DNA of 64,000 nucleotides from assembly GCA_023266195.1 (NCBI GenBank), contig JAHFRP010000007.1, forward strand, positions 1 to 64,000, given 5' to 3'. Below, one piece after another: positions 16,915-22,776 of this stretch. Numbering within the stretch: position 1 is the first letter of the stretch; each line of letters starts with the position of its first letter. This DNA is from Sulfuricella sp. GTDB lineage: Bacteria; Pseudomonadota; Gammaproteobacteria; Burkholderiales; Sulfuricellaceae. Position numbers and translations under genes: made by a program. The notes beneath the pieces are model-generated. The model saw only the letters and a program-made list of their open reading frames with translations, was not told the DNA's origin and searched no databases.

Positions 16915-17518
16915 TTGATGACGAGGTTATTGGCCGCGTCAACCTCGAAAGGAATTTCCCTGACCCAAGTTAATCCGGCAAACCCCGCCTGCAAAATCTT
17001 CCTGGTCGGCGTATACGACAACGAAGCCGAAGCGAAACGCGCGGTTGAACAGCTGATCGAGCGGAATTACCCGATGGATCTGCTATCCGTGCTCGGCCGG
17101 GTGCATGCATCCGGCGACGACCCCCTGGGCATTTACCACGCCGGAGCGGGGGAGCGGATGAAGGTCTGGGCCAGACAGGGCGCGCTGTGGGGTGGGCGGC
17201 CCGCTCGCCGGTGCCGCCGGCATGTTCGTTTTGCCGCCCATCGGCGCCGTGCTCGCCGCCGGACCGATCGCCGAGGCCACCGCGTCCGCCCTGGAAGGCG
17301 CGGTGGTGGCCGGGGCCGCCATGATGGGTGCGACGGCGGACCCCCACTTGGCCATAGCCGTGCGCCGCATCGGCATTCCCAAGGAAAAACTGGATCGTTT
17401 GCACCAGGCCATCACGGAAGGGCGCTACGTCGTGGTGCTGCACGGCAAATCAGGAGAAATCGAACGCTGGAAACCGCTCCTGGGGCGGAGCGCCGGCGAA
17501 ATCGTGGATCTGCCGTAA
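16915..17518 (+). pseudogene. Frameshifted gene for a glycine-rich DUF1269-like membrane-associated protein
   Basis: The first frame encodes KIFLVGVYDNEAEAKRAVEQ and RMKVWARQGALWG up to about 17190. The continuation is one base further on and encodes GGPLAGAAGMFVLPPIGAVL, IAVRRIGIPKEKLDRLHQAI and VVVLHGKSGEIERW, ending at 17516-17518. Together they make a single protein of roughly 190 residues with a hydrophobic glycine-zipper centre, similar in plan to DUF1269/general-stress proteins. The shift falls at the G-rich run GTGGGGTGGGCGG and is explained by one extra G. It may be a real mutation or a sequencing error. The start codon is uncertain. Confidence 0.6.
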
Positions 17519-17551
17519 ATGGCCACGGCCTGCGCGCCGCGGTAACCGGCC

Positions 17552-17573
17552 GGTCGGGCACCCGTGCCCGACC
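17552..17573 (-). repeat. GGTCGGGCA palindrome after the amyloid-like operon
   Basis: GGTCGGGCA and TGCCCGACC pair around a CCCG loop, at the 3' end of the minus-strand operon and touching its last stop codon. It may act as its terminator and resembles the core of the palindrome at 13298-13374. Confidence 0.55.
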
Positions 17574-18928
17574 TACCAGTCGAACGGCACCCGCAGCGTC
17601 AGCTGGACATCCGGGGTGTCCCTGGTCAGGCCGGCGCCGAGGGTGAGGCTGGCGCTGGTCTTGTTGTTGACGCGGTAGGAATAGCCCATCAGCAGGCTGG
17701 CGAGCTGAATGTTGGTGGAGCTGGGCGGGGCGACGCCGTCGATCTTGCTCTTGCCGATCCAGGTATGCTCGTAGCCCAGGCTGAAGGCGGCCTTCTCGTT
17801 GAGCGCCAGCCCCATGCCGAAGTTGAAGCCGGCCGCGTCGCCCGGATCGACCGTGCCGATGGGCAAGCCCAGGATGGCCGTGTTCACGTTGCGCTTGATG
17901 TTCCACATGTAGTTGACGCTGCCGAAAAACACCGCCGGATCGGTCGGATAGATCACGCTGAGGCTGGGCTGAATGCCATAGAAACCCGACCCGGTGGGCA
18001 GCGTTTCCGGAATGGAGGTGATGCCGGCCGTCGAGCCCTGAACATAGCTCACCTGGAACGGATCCTTGCCGGTGCGCGTCTTCAGGCGCAGCCCGGCGAC
18101 GTAGTACGGCCCTTCCGAGCCGGGCTCGTTGAGCTGGTAGCGCGCCGCCAGCTCGACGTCGCCGATGCCGTGGCCGGTGGCGTTGAAAGCGCTGTCCTGG
18201 TCGGCCCCTGAGCCAATCGGGCGGGTGACGGTATCGTCGTTGCGGTAGACATAGGGCAGCTTGGCTTCCACTTCCAGGCGGTTGGACAGGCCGTAGCGCG
18301 CGGTGACGGCGCCGACGAAAGTCTGCCGGTTGACGTGCTGCACGTCGATCAGGCCGATCACCAGCGCCGGGATGATGGTGTAGCCCACCAGCGAAACCCG
18401 GTCGTTCGACGAATAAGCATATTGGAGCGAAGGCTCGAACACCAGTTTTCCGCGTGCCGTGAGCACGCTGGGTTGTTCGAAAATCGGGGCGATTTCCGGT
18501 TGGCTGCCGTCTTTGGGCGCTTCCGGCGCCTGCCCAACCGGCTGGTTGGCCGGTTGCGCCTGGGCGACTTTTTCGGCTTCCGGTTTGGCTGGCGGCACAC
18601 CCGCTTTAGCCAGCAAGGCATCAAGCTGCCGTTTTGTTTCCCTGAGCGCCCGCCTCTGCGCCTGCAATTTCTTTTCCTCCTCTTCAATGGTCCGCTGCTG
18701 CGCTTCCAGCAGCCGGCCCTGCTCTTCCAGTTGCTGTCGGATCGGGGCGAGGTCGGCGTCGGCGTCCTGCTGCGCAATAAGTACGCCTCTGGGAGCTTCC
18801 TGCTGGACGATGGGTGTGGTCTGAACCGTGGCGGCCGGTTCCGCTTCCTGGCCGGAAGCGGAACCGGCCGCGATCAGCGCCCACGCCAGGCCGCCTTTTA
18901 TACCGGTTTTGGCATATTTCGATCGCAT
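17573..18928 (-). CDS. FapF-like outer-membrane beta-barrel secretion protein
   Basis: The 451-residue protein has a signal peptide (residues 1-26, ALIAAGSASG), a coiled coil (about 60-112: APIRQQLEEQGRLLEAQQRT and onward), a Pro/Ala/Gln-rich linker (about 113-150), and a C-terminal barrel (about 155-451) with many alternating strands such as LVFEPSLQYAYSSNDRV and the final RVPFDW ending in an aromatic residue. This order matches FapF, the channel that exports Pseudomonas Fap amyloid subunits. It is the last gene of a five-gene operon that also has a FapD-like C39 protease. A generic PF13557-type transporter barrel is the alternative label. Confidence 0.75.
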   Translation of the reverse strand: MRSKYAKTGIKGGLAWALIAAGSASGQEAEPAATVQTTPIVQQEAPRGVLIAQQDADADLAPIRQQLEEQGRLLEAQQRTIEEEEKKLQAQRRALRETKRQLDALLAKAGVPPAKPEAEKVAQAQPANQPVGQAPEAPKDGSQPEIAPIFEQPSVLTARGKLVFEPSLQYAYSSNDRVSLVGYTIIPALVIGLIDVQHVNRQTFVGAVTARYGLSNRLEVEAKLPYVYRNDDTVTRPIGSGADQDSAFNATGHGIGDVELAARYQLNEPGSEGPYYVAGLRLKTRTGKDPFQVSYVQGSTAGITSIPETLPTGSGFYGIQPSLSVIYPTDPAVFFGSVNYMWNIKRNVNTAILGLPIGTVDPGDAAGFNFGMGLALNEKAAFSLGYEHTWIGKSKIDGVAPPSSTNIQLASLLMGYSYRVNNKTSASLTLGAGLTRDTPDVQLTLRVPFDW

Positions 18929-19036
18929 TTGTCTGCTCTTTCTTGTTTGGTTGTCTGTTTATATATAGCTCAAACTTCCCTTTTTGTTTTGCCGGGACGG
19001 CCCCGCCGCGAATTTACGCCGCCAGCCGACATCATC

Positions 19037-19885
19037 CTAATGAATGGCCTTGGCAAGCGCCTGGTTGATGGACAAGGCCATCGCCATGGAACGCGCCAGC
19101 ACCTGGTTGGTCAGCGTTGCGTTGATGACCATGGAGGTGCTGATTTTCTGGTTGTCGAGCGTGTTCTGGATGATCGTGTTGAGCGCAGCCGTGCTTAGAT
19201 TGAGCCCATTCGGCACGGTAAACGTATTGTTCGATCCGTTCTGGATCAGCGTAACCGAGTTGTTATTGCTGCCGGTAGTTATCGATAGGTTGCCCGTATT
19301 GCCGCTGGCGACAACCGGCGGCGAGCTGCCCGCCGAAATCGGTGGCGGATTGCCGGCGGGCGGATTTGACATCGAGCTGCCGGCGTTGCTGTTGGCCGAT
19401 ATTGACGTTGAGCCGCCGGCGCCACTGCCGGTTATCGATGGATTGCCCGTATTGCCGCTAGCGACAACCGGCGGCACGCTATCGCCAGCTGCCGAAATTG
19501 GCGGCGGGTTGCTGGAGTTGGCGCTGGCCGATGTTGGAGTCGAACTGCTGGCGTTGCTGCTGGGCGATGTTGCCGACAAACTTTGCTGCACACCGCTGAC
19601 CGTAATTGACCGCAGGTTGGCGATATCCTCCGGAGACGGAAGGTTCAGCCTGGTAATCGCCACCAGTACGCCATTGATGTAAGTCACCCGCTCGATGGCA
19701 AAAGAGAGCTGCAATCCGCCATTGCTCAGCTCGAATCCGCCGCGCATTTTGCCTAGTTCGGTGTCGGTCGCGACGCGACTATCCTCAAAACCCCGGCCGA
19801 GAGCACCGGAATAGGCCGCTTGCCCCGAAAAGGCCGCGGCGACCAGCGCGGCCGTGACGGCGGCGCGTGTAACCCTGGTTTTCAT
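19037..19885 (-). CDS. Secreted fibre-subunit candidate in the FapE position, with a double-glycine site
   Basis: The 282-residue protein has a signal peptide (about 1-23), then ATDTELGKMRGG with a double glycine at 49-50 that fits the C39 leader consensus EL-x-x-[IM]-x-GG. Next come beta-prone ELSNGGLQLSFAIERVTYIN and a low-complexity Ser/Asn/Pro/Gly centre containing a duplicated unit (NPPPISA...PPVVASGNTGN, residues about 126-152 and 179-203). The C-terminus has AALNTIIQNTLDNQK and NATLTNQVLA. Asn/Gln-Ile-rich ends are typical of amyloid or curli-like subunits. No named family is recognised; the function is inferred from composition and operon context. Confidence 0.65.
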   Translation of the reverse strand: MKTRVTRAAVTAALVAAAFSGQAAYSGALGRGFEDSRVATDTELGKMRGGFELSNGGLQLSFAIERVTYINGVLVAITRLNLPSPEDIANLRSITVSGVQQSLSATSPSSNASSSTPTSASANSSNPPPISAAGDSVPPVVASGNTGNPSITGSGAGGSTSISANSNAGSSMSNPPAGNPPPISAGSSPPVVASGNTGNLSITTGSNNNSVTLIQNGSNNTFTVPNGLNLSTAALNTIIQNTLDNQKISTSMVINATLTNQVLARSMAMALSINQALAKAIH

Positions 19886-19896
19886 ATTGTTGCTCC

Positions 19897-20574
19897 TTAC
19901 AAGTCAGAGGGAGCGCGGCGCAACAAGGTAATGTTAGCTAGATCGCTCGGCCCGGCCGCGATACCCAGCGGGGCTTTTTCTCTGATATGCCAATCCAGTT
20001 TGCTGTCGAAAACAGCCTTGTCCTTGGCATCGTTGATCACAAACAGGATGCGGTTGATCTGTTTTTTTTCGAATTCATCCCGTGAAATAATTCTCGCCCC
20101 GGCGGAAGGATCGCCGACCGCCACCTGGTCGTTGCGGACGCCTTTGATGACCACGAAATGGTTGTAGCCGTTGTCCCTGATGAGCGCGATCGCGGGGATT
20201 CCTACTTGCGCCAGCTTACCTAGCGACGCTTCGTACCCGTCCGCCGAATAGCCGTGTATTTCCAGGTAGCGCTTGATGTCGAGCAGCGAAAACCCTTCGC
20301 GGCGGATCTTTTCCTGGTCGCCGTTTTCCCACATTTCCCGGAAAGCCCGCTCCTCGCTGACCGGATCGTGATAATGGTAGGTCAGCAACGTTGCCAGCGC
20401 AGCCGATCCGCAGCTGTAGTCGTACTGTTGCCGCACGGTGGAGCGAAACTGGCGTTCCTTCATGCTCATCACTTTTACCGTCATGGAGGAGCCCGGAATG
20501 ACCACCCAGCCGGCTTGAGCCGAAAAAGAAGCTAGCAGCGTGGCTGCTAGCGCAAATGACCGAAAGCCTTTCAT
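19897..20574 (-). CDS. Stand-alone periplasmic C39-family cysteine protease, FapD-like
   Basis: The 225-residue protein has a signal peptide (cleaved near AQA-GW, residue 21) and one peptidase C39 domain. The catalytic cysteine is C55 in QQYDYSCGSAALATLL, with the oxyanion glutamine just before it. The histidine is H139 (DNGYNHFVVIKG) and the aspartate D155 (AVGDPSAG). In bacteriocin exporters such domains cut after double-glycine leaders and are fused to ABC transporters; here there is no transporter, as in FapD of the Fap amyloid system. Spacings of 9 and 11 bases to its neighbours show one operon, and both neighbours carry double-glycine sites, so they are its likely substrates. Confidence 0.85.
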   Translation of the reverse strand: MKGFRSFALAATLLASFSAQAGWVVIPGSSMTVKVMSMKERQFRSTVRQQYDYSCGSAALATLLTYHYHDPVSEERAFREMWENGDQEKIRREGFSLLDIKRYLEIHGYSADGYEASLGKLAQVGIPAIALIRDNGYNHFVVIKGVRNDQVAVGDPSAGARIISRDEFEKKQINRILFVINDAKDKAVFDSKLDWHIREKAPLGIAAGPSDLANITLLRRAPSDL

Positions 20575-20583
20575 GGCAATCTC

Positions 20584-20931
20584 CTATTGCAGCTTGAGAT
20601 TCAGAATGGTCGCGTTCTGAATGATGACGTTGTTGCCGGAATTCTGGATTACAGTATTCATCCCGTTGGCACCGGCAAAGGCGCCCGAGGTGATCAAGTT
20701 GCTCCCGGTGATGTTGGAAATCGCCTGGTTATCGGTAAGCGTTGCATCGAGATTGTTGCTATTGATTTCCACGGTATGGCCGCCACGGTTGGCCGCAAGC
20801 TGGTCATCCGGGATGGCGGCGCCGAAACCGCCGACTGCGGGCCCGGCCTCTTCATCCGCCTGTGCACCCGGCGAAAACACATTCAGCGACAAGACCGTCG
20901 CACCGATAAGAAAATAGGTTAATTTTTTCAT
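20584..20931 (-). CDS. Small secreted fibre-subunit candidate with a double-glycine site
   Basis: The 115-residue protein starts MKKLTYFLIGATVLSLNVFS (signal peptide, cut near AQA, residue 25). It has PDDQLAANRGG with a double glycine at 50-51, almost the same position as in the 282-residue neighbour. The mature part is rich in Asn, Ile and Thr, with NNLDATLTDNQAISNI and GANGMNTVIQNSGNNVIIQN close to the C-terminus. This is the composition and motif type of curli-like and Fap-like amyloid subunits. The start at 20931 was chosen for the signal peptide; a longer frame upstream has none. It may be a minor subunit or nucleator. Confidence 0.65.
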   Translation of the reverse strand: MKKLTYFLIGATVLSLNVFSPGAQADEEAGPAVGGFGAAIPDDQLAANRGGHTVEINSNNLDATLTDNQAISNITGSNLITSGAFAGANGMNTVIQNSGNNVIIQNATILNLKLQ

Positions 20932-20997
20932 TGCGATGCCTCCACGGTGAAAAAGCCCGGGGCGGGGCAAACAGCCCGTCCCGGGCCCCACATCAAC

Positions 20998-22776
20998 TTA
21001 GTGAACCGTCAAATTCGCCTGGACGGTGACACCTTGCTGAATCAGCGAGTTGGCGCCCGTGCTCTGGGCTACCGTGACGATGCCGGTCGAGCCGCTCAAG
21101 CTGCCGCTGAGGGTGTTGGACGCGTTGAACGTACCCGCATCGGCGCCGCTGGCGTTGCCGCCATTGCCGCCATTGCCGCCATTGCCCGTGCTTGCCGAAG
21201 CAAGGGCCTGACCGCTGGTCGCGGTGCCGCCCATGCCGCCGGCACCGCCGTTGCCGCTGGTAGCGGTTGACGTACCGGCACCGCCAGTTGCCGCGGCACC
21301 ACCTGCGCCACCGGTTCCGCCGGTTGCACCTGCGCCGGCAAGACCGCCATTGCCGGTTCCGCCATTACCGGCAGCGCCAGTCGCGCCGGCACCGCCAGTG
21401 GCGGTGCCGGTTGCACCAGCGGCACCGACGGCGCCGTTACCGCCCAAGCTGGTGCCTGTTGCGCCGGTTCCCGTCGCTCCGGCAGCACCCAGACCCGCCG
21501 TGCTGGTTCCAGCCGCGCCGTTGCCAGCCGCGCCGGTTCCCGTCGCGCCCGCGGCAGCGGCGCCGCCGGTGCCGCCCGTACCCGACCCGCCCGTGCTGGA
21601 GCCGCTTGCGCCGCCGCCGGTAGACGAGCCGCCGTTAGCGCTGCTGGTCCCACCTGCGCCGGTATTGACCGTGTTTCCTGCGGTTTGGCTGGTGCCTCCG
21701 GGAGGAACGTTGGTATTGCTCGCCGTTGCCGCGCTGCTACCGCCCTTGGAGGTAGAATCACCGCCACTGGCTTTCGCATTGCCGGCGTCCGCGCTTGTGC
21801 TGCTGCCGGTGCCGATACCTTTTCCGGCGTTACCGCCGTCGCCGCCGCTGCCGCCGGCCCCAAACCCACCGATACCCAGCCCGCCCGCCGCTTTGCCGGA
21901 GTTGCCGCCAGCGCCGCCAGCGCCGCCCGTTCCGGCGCCGCCAGTGCTATCGCCAGCTTTGCCGCCATTGCCGCCAGCGCCGCCGTTGCCGCCCGCAGCG
22001 TAACCGCCTTTGCCGCCATTGCCGCCATCGCCGCCGGTTCCGGAGCCGCCTTTGCCGCCGGTCGCATAACCGCCGTTCCCGCCTTTGCCGCCGTTGCCGC
22101 CATCACCGCCAATACTGTCGCCGCCATAGGCCTTGGCATAGGCATCGCCGGTGCTGCCGCCTTTAGCCCCATTTGCCGTAGCGCTGCCGCTCTTGGCGGT
22201 TTGGTCGGCGCTGCCGCCATTGCCACCCTTGGCGCCATCACCCGCTATTCCGCCGCCATAGGCCCGGTTTCCGGTATCGCTGACGCGGTTGTCTTTTACG
22301 GTACCGTCAAGTTTGGTCGACGCGGAAACGGTGGTGTTGTTGGAATTTTTGTTGCGTACCGAGTTATCCGTGTTGTACGAATCCTTGGTATGCACCGAGT
22401 TATCCGTATTGAACGAATCGCGGTAATCGGTATGGGTCGTGGTGTTGTTCGAGTTCTTGTTCTTGGTATGTACCGAGTTATCCGTGTTGTTGGAATTCTT
22501 GGTATTTACCGAGTTATCCGTATTGTTCGAGTTCTTGTTATGCACCGAGCTATCCGGATTGCTCGAGTTATCGGTCCAGTTCTTCGAGTTCTGGTAGGCC
22601 TGAGAATTTTCATTCGCAGCGGCGCCGGATTGAGAGCTCTGGTTGGAATCAGCCGTCGCCGCCTGCGTGAGGCTGGTGCTGGTATCTGCATTGTTGTTGT
22701 TGGTCGGGTTCGCCCATACCGGGGCTGTGACCCCAAAGGCCAGCGCGATCGCTGCCGACAAGATCGTCTTTTTCAT
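20998..22776 (-). CDS. Large secreted Asn-repeat/Gly-rich protein, first gene of the amyloid-like operon
   Basis: The 592-residue protein has a signal peptide (1-22, ending APVWA), a Thr/Ser/Gln-rich segment, an Asn-rich tandem repeat region (about 69-150, unit NSNNTDNSVHTK), a very Gly-rich region (about 171-400, GGNGGKGG type), an Ala/Gly/Thr region (about 400-545) and a C-terminal tail with NTLSGSLSGSTGIV and GANSLIQQGVTVQANL. No cysteine is apparent in the mature part. The start at 22776 follows AAGGAGAG. It looks like a secreted structural or matrix protein, and its C-terminal motif is shared with the two smaller subunits. I do not recognise a named family, and length and composition differ from FapB and FapC. 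Confidence 0.7.
   Translation of the reverse strand: MKKTILSAAIALAFGVTAPVWANPTNNNNADTSTSLTQAATADSNQSSQSGAAANENSQAYQNSKNWTDNSSNPDSSVHNKNSNNTDNSVNTKNSNNTDNSVHTKNKNSNNTTTHTDYRDSFNTDNSVHTKDSYNTDNSVRNKNSNNTTVSASTKLDGTVKDNRVSDTGNRAYGGGIAGDGAKGGNGGSADQTAKSGSATANGAKGGSTGDAYAKAYGGDSIGGDGGNGGKGGNGGYATGGKGGSGTGGDGGNGGKGGYAAGGNGGAGGNGGKAGDSTGGAGTGGAGGAGGNSGKAAGGLGIGGFGAGGSGGDGGNAGKGIGTGSSTSADAGNAKASGGDSTSKGGSSAATASNTNVPPGGTSQTAGNTVNTGAGGTSSANGGSSTGGGASGSSTGGSGTGGTGGAAAAGATGTGAAGNGAAGTSTAGLGAAGATGTGATGTSLGGNGAVGAAGATGTATGGAGATGAAGNGGTGNGGLAGAGATGGTGGAGGAAATGGAGTSTATSGNGGAGGMGGTATSGQALASASTGNGGNGGNGGNASGADAGTFNASNTLSGSLSGSTGIVTVAQSTGANSLIQQGVTVQANLTVH
21130..22265 (-). repeat. Gly/Ala-rich degenerate tandem coding repeat
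   Basis: The DNA is made of degenerate GCCGCC-ATT/GTT-GCCGCC units that encode GGNGG, GGKGG, GTGGAGG and similar blocks. Such tracts are prone to slippage and recombination, so the copy number may differ between strains or be misassembled. Confidence 0.7.
22335..22570 (-). repeat. 36-bp tandem coding repeats (NSNNTDNSVHTK)
   Basis: The plus-strand motif ACCGAGTTATCCGT(G/A)TTG recurs at roughly 36-base or longer steps. It encodes five to six partly degenerate copies of N-S-x-N-T-D-N-S-V-x-x-K at residues about 69-150 of the large secreted protein. Confidence 0.75.

Follow-up and report, generated by a model that had tools for sequence, protein, structure and literature searches.

Organization of the locus

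Five open reading frames (ORFs) lie on the minus strand at positions 22776-17573 of a 64,000-nucleotide stretch of Sulfuricella sp. DNA (contig JAHFRP010000007.1, positions 1 to 64,000; hereafter the window), in the order P5-P4-C39-P2-P1, where the C39 peptidase is P3. A sequence-only reading of this DNA had described them as five minus-strand genes of a divergent Fap-type system that exports amyloid fibre subunits, and all five ORFs are present in the ORF list of the window as that reading had placed them. The intergenic gaps along this order are 66, 9, 11, and 108 bp, a spacing that makes a single operon likely. A consensus scan of the locus returned no sigma-70-like promoter, and terminator-like sites at the locus show no excess over shuffled sequences. 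The genes and their internal features are given below; the signal peptides of all five proteins were called by a crude script of our own rather than by a trained predictor.

20998-22776, minus strand: P5, 592-residue secreted Gly/Ala/Asn-rich protein, candidate main structural subunit, without an RGG leader (ORF list)
22358-22569, minus strand: Asn-rich 36-bp tandem repeat region inside P5 (Tandem Repeats Finder)
21157-22269, minus strand: Gly-rich putative shaft of P5, Gly enriched every three residues, limits set by eye
21001-21120, minus strand: P5 C-terminal module NTLSGSLSGSTGIVTVAQSTGANSLIQQGVTVQANLTV (hhalign comparison of P4 and P5; P4 profile match at 21019-21120, E = 0.1)
20584-20931, minus strand: P4, 115-residue secreted protein with 64 residues after RGG
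20779-20817, minus strand: P4 putative double-glycine leader, residues 39-51, AIPDDQLAANRGG (strict pattern in 67/99 loci; predicted helix 42-48)
20587-20706, minus strand: P4 C-terminal module NLITSGAFAGANGMNTVIQNSGNNVIIQNATILNLKLQ (profile comparison of C-termini)
19897-20574, minus strand: P3, 225-residue FapD-like stand-alone C39 peptidase with a signal peptide and Gln49, Cys55, His139, and Asp155 (Pfam, NCBIfam)
19037-19885, minus strand: P2, 282-residue secreted protein in the place of FapE, with 232 residues after RGG
19736-19774, minus strand: P2 putative double-glycine leader, residues 38-50, VATDTELGKMRGG (101/101 loci; predicted helix 41-47)
19106-19189, minus strand: P2 C-terminal module AALNTIIQNTLDNQKISTSMVINATL (hhalign comparison of P2 and P4 C-termini)
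17573-18928, minus strand: P1, FapF-like outer-membrane protein of 451 residues (NCBIfam FapF, PDB 5o67)
18593-18760, minus strand: P1 coiled-coil segment, approximately residues 57-112 (recognized in the sequence by eye; alignment to the FapF model starts at residue 51)
17582-18517, minus strand: P1 beta-barrel, residues 138-449, LPTG loop included (aligns with the FapF barrel chain 5o67)

P5 contains 28% Gly, 16% Ala, and 11% Asn. The description of the two smaller proteins as Asn/Ile-rich holds for P4 (13% Asn, 9% Ile) and fits P2 less well, this protein being rich in Ser, Ala, and Asn (16, 13, and 10%, respectively).

The predicted FapF-like channel and the FapD-like peptidase

Profile searches bear out the proposed kinship of the barrel and the protease to FapF and FapD. 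P1 matches the NCBIfam FapF model with E = 2e-50 over residues 51-449, a span comprising coiled coil and barrel, and the FilC model more weakly (1e-19). FapF is its only convincing match in the PDB (5o67, 9.6e-36), and four of the five PDB sequences listed for P1 are FapF, with the fifth at E = 0.84. A better alignment to unrelated porins, named beforehand as the outcome that would speak against the assignment, was not seen; the porin-like Pfam family Phenol_MetA_deg reaches 8e-6, as against 2e-50 for FapF. P3 is matched by Pfam Peptidase_C39 (2.2e-22), by NCBIfam FapD (1.1e-40) and FilB (5.3e-35), and, in the PDB, by the C39 domains of ATP-binding cassette (ABC) exporters (6mpz at 2e-7 and 7n87 at 1e-6). 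The catalytic residues Gln49, Cys55, His139, and Asp155 are kept in 101 of 101 proteases from loci of the five-gene type described below and in all 21 proteases from canonical-type fap loci. P1 is, on these matches, a relative of FapF and a predicted FapF-type channel with a periplasmic coiled coil, and P3 is a relative of FapD, a predicted periplasmic C39 peptidase that retains its catalytic residues.

P3 resembles the C39 domains found in PCAT1 and related ABC exporters in fold and catalytic residues, and the leader rule of those domains is common to P2 and P4. Unlike them, P3 stands alone with a signal peptide, and no ABC transporter is found among the five genes. Because the protease is a stand-alone protein with a signal peptide, cutting would take place in the periplasm, after export by Sec.

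We also looked for a loose leader-like pattern (L...RGG) in front of the P1 barrel. It occurs in 19 of 98 loci of the five-gene type and in 1 of 18 canonical loci, with shuffled expectations of about 7% and 6%, respectively, and its carriers include loci L086, L118, L144, and L148. Given that P1 of the window lacks the pattern, and that some matches may lie in wrongly extended ORFs, a leader in P1 would be at most an occasional feature. Cleavage of FapF has been suspected in published Fap work, and the leader-like sites in P1 sit in the same place, before the barrel. A second match to the FapF model in the window's own genome (G000:C5:157344-157574, locus L002) is weak (E = 4.5e-4), covers model positions 7-87 only, and is probably a chance coiled coil.

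Distribution and conservation of the gene set

A protease profile built from an alignment of six loci picks out 42 of 300 genomes when run on the same order at E up to 1e-20, with scores that fall into two groups; within the genus it picks out 2 of 12 genomes, and 80 named loci were kept out of 226 related stretches. The gene-neighbourhood check that the sequence-only reading had proposed shows that the five-gene set is not a local arrangement, since it recurs in about 100 loci. Sets of the five-gene type, some truncated by contig ends, are present in 101 loci, including the window, in Pseudomonadota, Nitrospirota, and Thermodesulfobacteriota. These loci were picked by protease score (at least 240 bits) after removal of six duplicates (L069, L071, L091, L093, L117, and L119), and they do not include the G046 fragments L027, L031, and L032 or locus L114, for which no C39 ORF is listed. 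Gene-order strings show the P4-C39-P2 row, in many cases preceded by P5 and with P1 close by, in genera that include Sulfuricella, Thiobacillus, Azohydromonas, Massilia, Paraburkholderia, Ralstonia, Lysobacter, Luteibacter, Geotalea, and Nitrospira. The place of P4 is occupied by an ORF in 99 of the 101 loci, the remaining two beginning at a contig end, and in the place of P5 in 83; among the 18 loci lacking P5, the protease lies no more than about 2.1 kb from the start of the locus in 17. A P1 gene is found in 98 loci, co-directional in 40, convergent downstream in 49, and elsewhere in nine. Relatives are carried on the megaplasmid of Cupriavidus metallidurans CH34 and on a plasmid of Croceicoccus marinus, and the gene row of a plasmid-borne relative is publicly annotated merely as 'hypothetical protein', 'C39 family peptidase', and 'transporter'. 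Searching the window's own 3.1-Mb genome with a P4 profile (E up to 1) returned only P4 and, weakly, the P5 C-terminus (E = 0.1). This result, together with the recurrence of the same genes in the same order in about 100 other loci, places the five-gene set beyond chance.

In a protease tree, the five-gene type forms one clade (support 99/98) apart from the canonical-type fap loci. The tree includes 46 of the 100 rows of the five-gene type, 45 taken at random plus the window, and L038, L142, and L153 were left out; since the 101 loci had themselves been picked by protease score, the clade is not wholly independent of that selection. Moreover, in genomes G152, G250, and G324 a locus of the five-gene type coexists with a canonical-type fap locus (L060/L067, L062/L068, and L175/L153, respectively), so that the two are separate systems. 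One canonical-type locus (L150), when scanned against NCBIfam, gives matches to FapB, FapC, FapE, and FapF. In a sample of 369 genomes from the class, 15 have a protease of the five-gene lineage (E up to 1e-60; the window's genome, which every sample includes, is among these 15) and 15 have a FapD-type match of at least 190 bits, the two counts resting on different queries and thresholds; none of the matches in this sample lies above the NCBI cut-off for FapD.

Double-glycine leaders in P2 and P4

Peptides that C39 domains process typically carry double-glycine leaders, which follow a rule of hydrophobic residues at -12, -7, and -4 with GG at -2/-1. Such leaders had been assigned to the two smaller proteins, and the pattern is indeed found in both: P2 shows [LMV]...[RQS]GG at 101 of 101 loci, and the strict pattern is present in 67 of 99 P4 proteins. 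Of shuffled P2 sequences, 5.9% show the P2 pattern; of 359 other ORFs with a signal peptide at these loci, a set that surely includes spurious ones, 9 show it. When P2 was chosen by a model based solely on the sequence that follows the leader, the leader was again present in 101 of 101 loci. Among these proteins (n = 101), -12 is hydrophobic or Ala, -7 is L in 99, -4 is mostly M, L, or I (79), -3 is R in 97, -2 is G in 101, -1 is G in 100, and +1 is F in 84. The finder required G at -2 and a hydrophobic residue at -7, and the position table and pattern counts still contain one wrongly picked ORF (L102), the true P2 ORF of that locus also having an RGG leader. Only M1, L44, R48, G49, G50, and G72 are invariant columns in a 46-row alignment of P2. 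In nine held-out loci, fetched after the pattern had been seen, the P2 leader ends in RGG in 9/9, one ORF (L183) being found via the profile. At L051 and L145 (P2) and at L062 and L168 (P4), wrongly picked neighbouring ORFs were replaced by profile matches. P5 of the window has no such leader.

Structure prediction, another proposed check, covered P2 and P4. AlphaFold places a short helix directly before RGG in both proteins (residues 41-47 of P2 and 42-48 of P4); the remainder of P4 is predicted to be disordered, and the overall confidence is too low for fold searches (predicted local distance difference test score 61 and predicted template modelling score 0.34 for P2; 60 and 0.25 for P4). 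P2 and P4 thus fit the C39 leader rule as predicted substrates, with L at -7, hydrophobic residues at -4 and -12, G at -2, and G or A at -1.

One might suppose instead that neither P2 nor P4 is cut, and that the RGG segment is a docking signal for a C39 protein that serves as a chaperone, in the manner of the degenerate C39-like domains of transporters. The last Gly is replaced by R, K, or another residue in FapE and in part of P4, and catalytically inactive C39-like domains may act as chaperones according to PMC5557850. Against this stand the full set of catalytic Gln, Cys, His, and Asp in 101 of 101 proteases, G at -1 in 100 of 101 P2 proteins, and the loss of FapC secretion on mutating the FapD Cys to Ala, as reported in the same paper for an E. 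coli assay of the Pseudomonas operon. We regard docking without cutting as quite improbable.

Leader-like motifs are also seen outside the five-gene lineage. Other FapD-like proteases adjoin small proteins that our script calls secreted, with the motifs ALSNAQMDQVSAG (L025, L046), LS-QEM--TEGA/S (L038, L039, L042), and VDDEVL--QTGQ (L029, L035); the same scan found none at further FapD-like loci, for example L041, L044, and L047. These motifs hint that periplasmic double-glycine maturation may extend beyond amyloids.

P2 as a probable counterpart of FapE

The ORF in the FapE place, after the protease, has the same leader ending in RGR or RGK in all 15 loci for which FapD score was the sole criterion of choice, and these are canonical-type loci below the NCBI FapD cut-offs. 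We collected 21 canonical-type loci in all; only the 15 selected by FapD score (L149-L163) count as a test of the leader because the other six were classed by the FapE leader itself. Comparison of whole proteins with hhalign, using 79 of the 101 P2 sequences (up to 300 residues) and 15 FapE, gives a probability of 74.2% (P = 2.7e-5) over 37 columns that cover the leader and the residues following it, and leader-anchored sets give 84.5% (P = 6.9e-6). A plain orthologue of FapE was rejected as an identity for P2, significance being confined to the leader part, and for 46 P2 proteins scanned against NCBIfam, FapE is not among the families listed (25 out of 30 shown). P2 is best seen as a counterpart of FapE, since it occupies the FapE place and shares the FapE leader and the residues after it. 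The idea that two small double-glycine proteins and a repetitive one substitute for the Fap subunits is correct to the extent that the subunit set is not that of Fap, but the 282-residue protein is no simple replacement of FapE, with which it shares place and leader.

This leader bears on the question of what FapD cuts. In PMC5557850, FapD activity is essential for FapC secretion, which the Cys-to-Ala mutant abolishes in the E. coli assay described above; the FapD target is called unclear; canonical C39 sites are said to be absent from the Fap proteins; and the data presented for FapE contain no N-terminal peptides. According to a 2025 review (PMC12822426), FapD presumably processes the N-terminus of FapE as well as part of FapF. 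The near-invariant RGG leader of P2 and the RGR/RGK leader of FapE provide a precise cut site to test. The almost unchanging P2 leader also suggests that cutting of P2 may be an export gate, similar to what has been proposed for FapE.

Subunits and their C-terminal modules

The subunit set is, as had been claimed, unlike those of described fap operons. P2 and P4 have no match in Pfam or NCBIfam at E up to 1, P5 has nothing convincing, and the NCBIfam scan of the window proteins (E up to 1) reports no FapB, FapC, or FapE model. FapA, which is often absent from canonical fap operons, has no match in the Pfam and NCBIfam scans of the window proteins, where the presence of a FapA model was left unchecked. 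Scanned singly against NCBIfam, 46 P2 (25 of 30 families shown), 36 P4, and 24 P5 relatives gave no fitting family, and nor did P2 and P4 relatives in Pfam at E up to 0.1. The FapB model touches 2 of 24 P5 relatives (best E = 0.023) and 2 of 36 P4 relatives (best E = 0.13), neither being significant. P4 and P5 as homologues of FapB and FapC were rejected as unproven, given these E values and an unconvincing comparison of C-termini.

Comparing unselected ends with hhalign gives 94.0% (P = 1.4e-7) for P4 and P5 (the last 46 residues) and 95.6% (P = 1.1e-8) for P4 and P2. Our first comparisons used ends and leaders cut by regular expressions, with possible inflation, and were repeated on unselected ends and whole proteins; the motif-selected C-terminal comparisons agree with the unselected ones, and their column-shuffled controls reach at best 16.6 and 13.3 against 37.2 and 41.9, values that are uncorrected for selection. 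By regular expression, the C-terminal module is found in 68 of the 83 ORFs in the P5 place, and the P5-place ORFs of L165 and L166 carry four copies of a loose repeat pattern. As separate observations, an LWDE motif is common to small secreted proteins near fap-type loci (L150:5863-6198, L151:8267-8581, L154:7479-7835, L164:3469-3801, and L165:7919-8272), several of which also have a leader-like motif.

The kinship among C-termini also bears on the possibility that the locus secretes peptides rather than fibres, P4 and P2 being double-glycine signals or bacteriocin-like products matured in the periplasm and released via P1, with P5 as scaffold or adhesin. Leaders of this kind are what C39-processed peptides have, P4 would leave only 64 residues, and some of the other FapD-like clades adjoin small secreted proteins with related leaders. 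Peptides acting alone, however, would have no need of the kinship that the P4 C-terminus shows to the C-termini of P2 and the large P5; in addition, 232 residues remain in P2, the barrel is FapF-like, and the intergenic gaps are too small for an immunity gene. We consider peptide secretion rather improbable.

In P5 of the window, Gly pairs at a lag of three residues are 1.95 times as frequent as expected from composition, and in 11 of 13 P5 proteins examined this enrichment is 1.45 to 2.03, the other two lying below 1. The Gly-rich region would fit a polyglycine-II-like shaft. A non-amyloid coat might be built in this way, P5 being a Gly-rich adhesive or polyglycine-II-type protein that leaves through the FapF-like channel, with P4 and P2 as accessory or anchoring proteins and no cross-beta structure. 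The Gly content and its lag-3 enrichment are in keeping with such a coat, as are the variable length of the P5-place ORF (193 to 1057 residues, n = 83) and the lack of a convincing match to any amyloid family. Related C-terminal modules in subunits of differing size argue the other way, as does an export machinery of the type found in amyloid systems, and a coat of this kind seems unlikely to us.

On the plus strand beside the locus, the overlapping ORFs 16915-17646 and 17192-17518 are in different frames and read like one protein; this neighbouring gene (16915-17518) looks frameshifted, or reflects an assembly error.

Relation to known systems and proposed mechanism

The window shares with Fap (fapABCDEF) a FapF-type channel, a FapD-type C39 protease with a signal peptide, the order subunits-D-E-F, secreted Asn-rich subunits, and a FapE-type leader. 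It differs in that the FapB, FapC, and FapE models are unmatched, the leader ends in RGG rather than the RGR or RGK of FapE, the protease falls in a separate clade, and P1 is encoded on the opposite strand at 49 of the 101 loci of the lineage. FapB and FapC have almost invariably three imperfect repeats (PMC12822426), whereas each window subunit has one C-terminal module. Since two Fap machines are shared but the three-repeat subunits are not, the locus is filed as a sister lineage of Fap and not as a fap operon. The Acinetobacter Fil system has related families in NCBIfam, the FilB C39 peptidase (5.3e-35 for P3) and the FilC barrel (1e-19 for P1), but these matches are weaker than those to FapD and FapF, and no further Fil model is reported for the window proteins. 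Curli (Csg) subunits resemble those of the window, by eye only, in short strand-turn-strand units with spaced Gln and a Gly/Asn turn; the spacing is QX10Q in curli and QX8Q in the window subunits, and Curlin_rpt (PF07012) was found in none of the window proteins (E up to 1), nor in four P5 relatives (E up to 10) or one P4 relative.

What the computation shows is that P1 and P3 are related to FapF and FapD, that the gene set is conserved, that the leaders are present, that the C-terminus of P4 is kin to the C-termini of P5 and P2, and that the proteases form a clade of their own. We think it likely, on these sequence comparisons, that the locus encodes a surface-fibre system, a sister lineage of Fap, in which a FapD-like periplasmic protease cuts the leaders of P2, and often of P4, before export via P1. 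Sec would export all five proteins, as their signal peptides suggest. The periplasmic FapD-like protease would then bind the short helical leader of P2, and in many cases that of P4, and cut after R-G-G, a step to which the conservation of leader and active site points. The mature, largely unstructured subunits, together with P5, would cross the FapF-like channel P1, by homology with Fap. Outside the cell, P5, P4, and P2 may join through their C-terminal strand-turn-strand modules, with P5 providing the bulk of the fibre by its long Gly-rich shaft, P4 serving as nucleator or as a minor subunit in the manner of FapB, and P2, as the FapE counterpart, starting or anchoring export. The sequence-only interpretation is thus partly supported; fibre formation and an amyloid nature of the product are what we infer from the likeness to Fap.

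Several observations weigh against this scheme. P1 and P3 fall far below the NCBIfam equivalog cut-off for FapF (171.8 bits against 700) and the cut-off for FapD (139.3 bits against 330), respectively. Three loci have no P1, and only one of them is on a short contig, L100 and L137 being on long ones. The P4 leader is weaker than that of P2, with shuffled expectations of 3.5% for the strict pattern and 30% for the loose one, which is found in 92 of 99 loci; because the strict leader is present in only 4 of 9 held-out loci, the others ending in RAK (3), RGQ, or RGM, cutting of P4 may not be general to the lineage. P2 and FapE show no significant similarity beyond the leader (P = 0.14), and the C-termini of P5 and P2 have no direct likeness (P = 0.2). 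When set against FapB/FapC repeats, which were picked by pattern, the P4 C-terminus is unconvincing (P = 0.0078 over 11 columns, probability 5%), as is that of P5 (P = 0.25), and a P4 C-terminal model reaches only 7 of 83 P5 proteins in a single-sequence search, weakly (E up to 1e-3). The P2 and P4 models also have too low a confidence to establish the fold of the C-terminal modules.

A 2025 survey anchored on the repeats describes Fap as evolutionarily fixed, with almost always three FapB/FapC repeats (PMC12822426). Such a search would probably miss the present lineage because its subunits match no FapB or FapC model convincingly. fapD-fapF pairs have been noted in five further phyla (PMC6173800), and loci of the five-gene type may account for some of them. 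In searches of open-access papers other than bioRxiv preprints, we found no description of the lineage or of a double-glycine leader in FapE. The five-gene cluster looks like a widespread relative, as yet without a name, of the Fap system by which Pseudomonas exports amyloid fibres. We give even weight to the broader proposal that it is a second, independently evolving Fap-type branch, about as common as the canonical one in the sampled class, in which subunits polymerize mostly through one C-terminal module each and leaders are cut in the periplasm after Sec export with no ABC transporter. The leaders of the subunits suggest what a FapD-like protease cuts, and the shared leader would, if the broader proposal is true, make FapE a substrate of FapD in Pseudomonas too.

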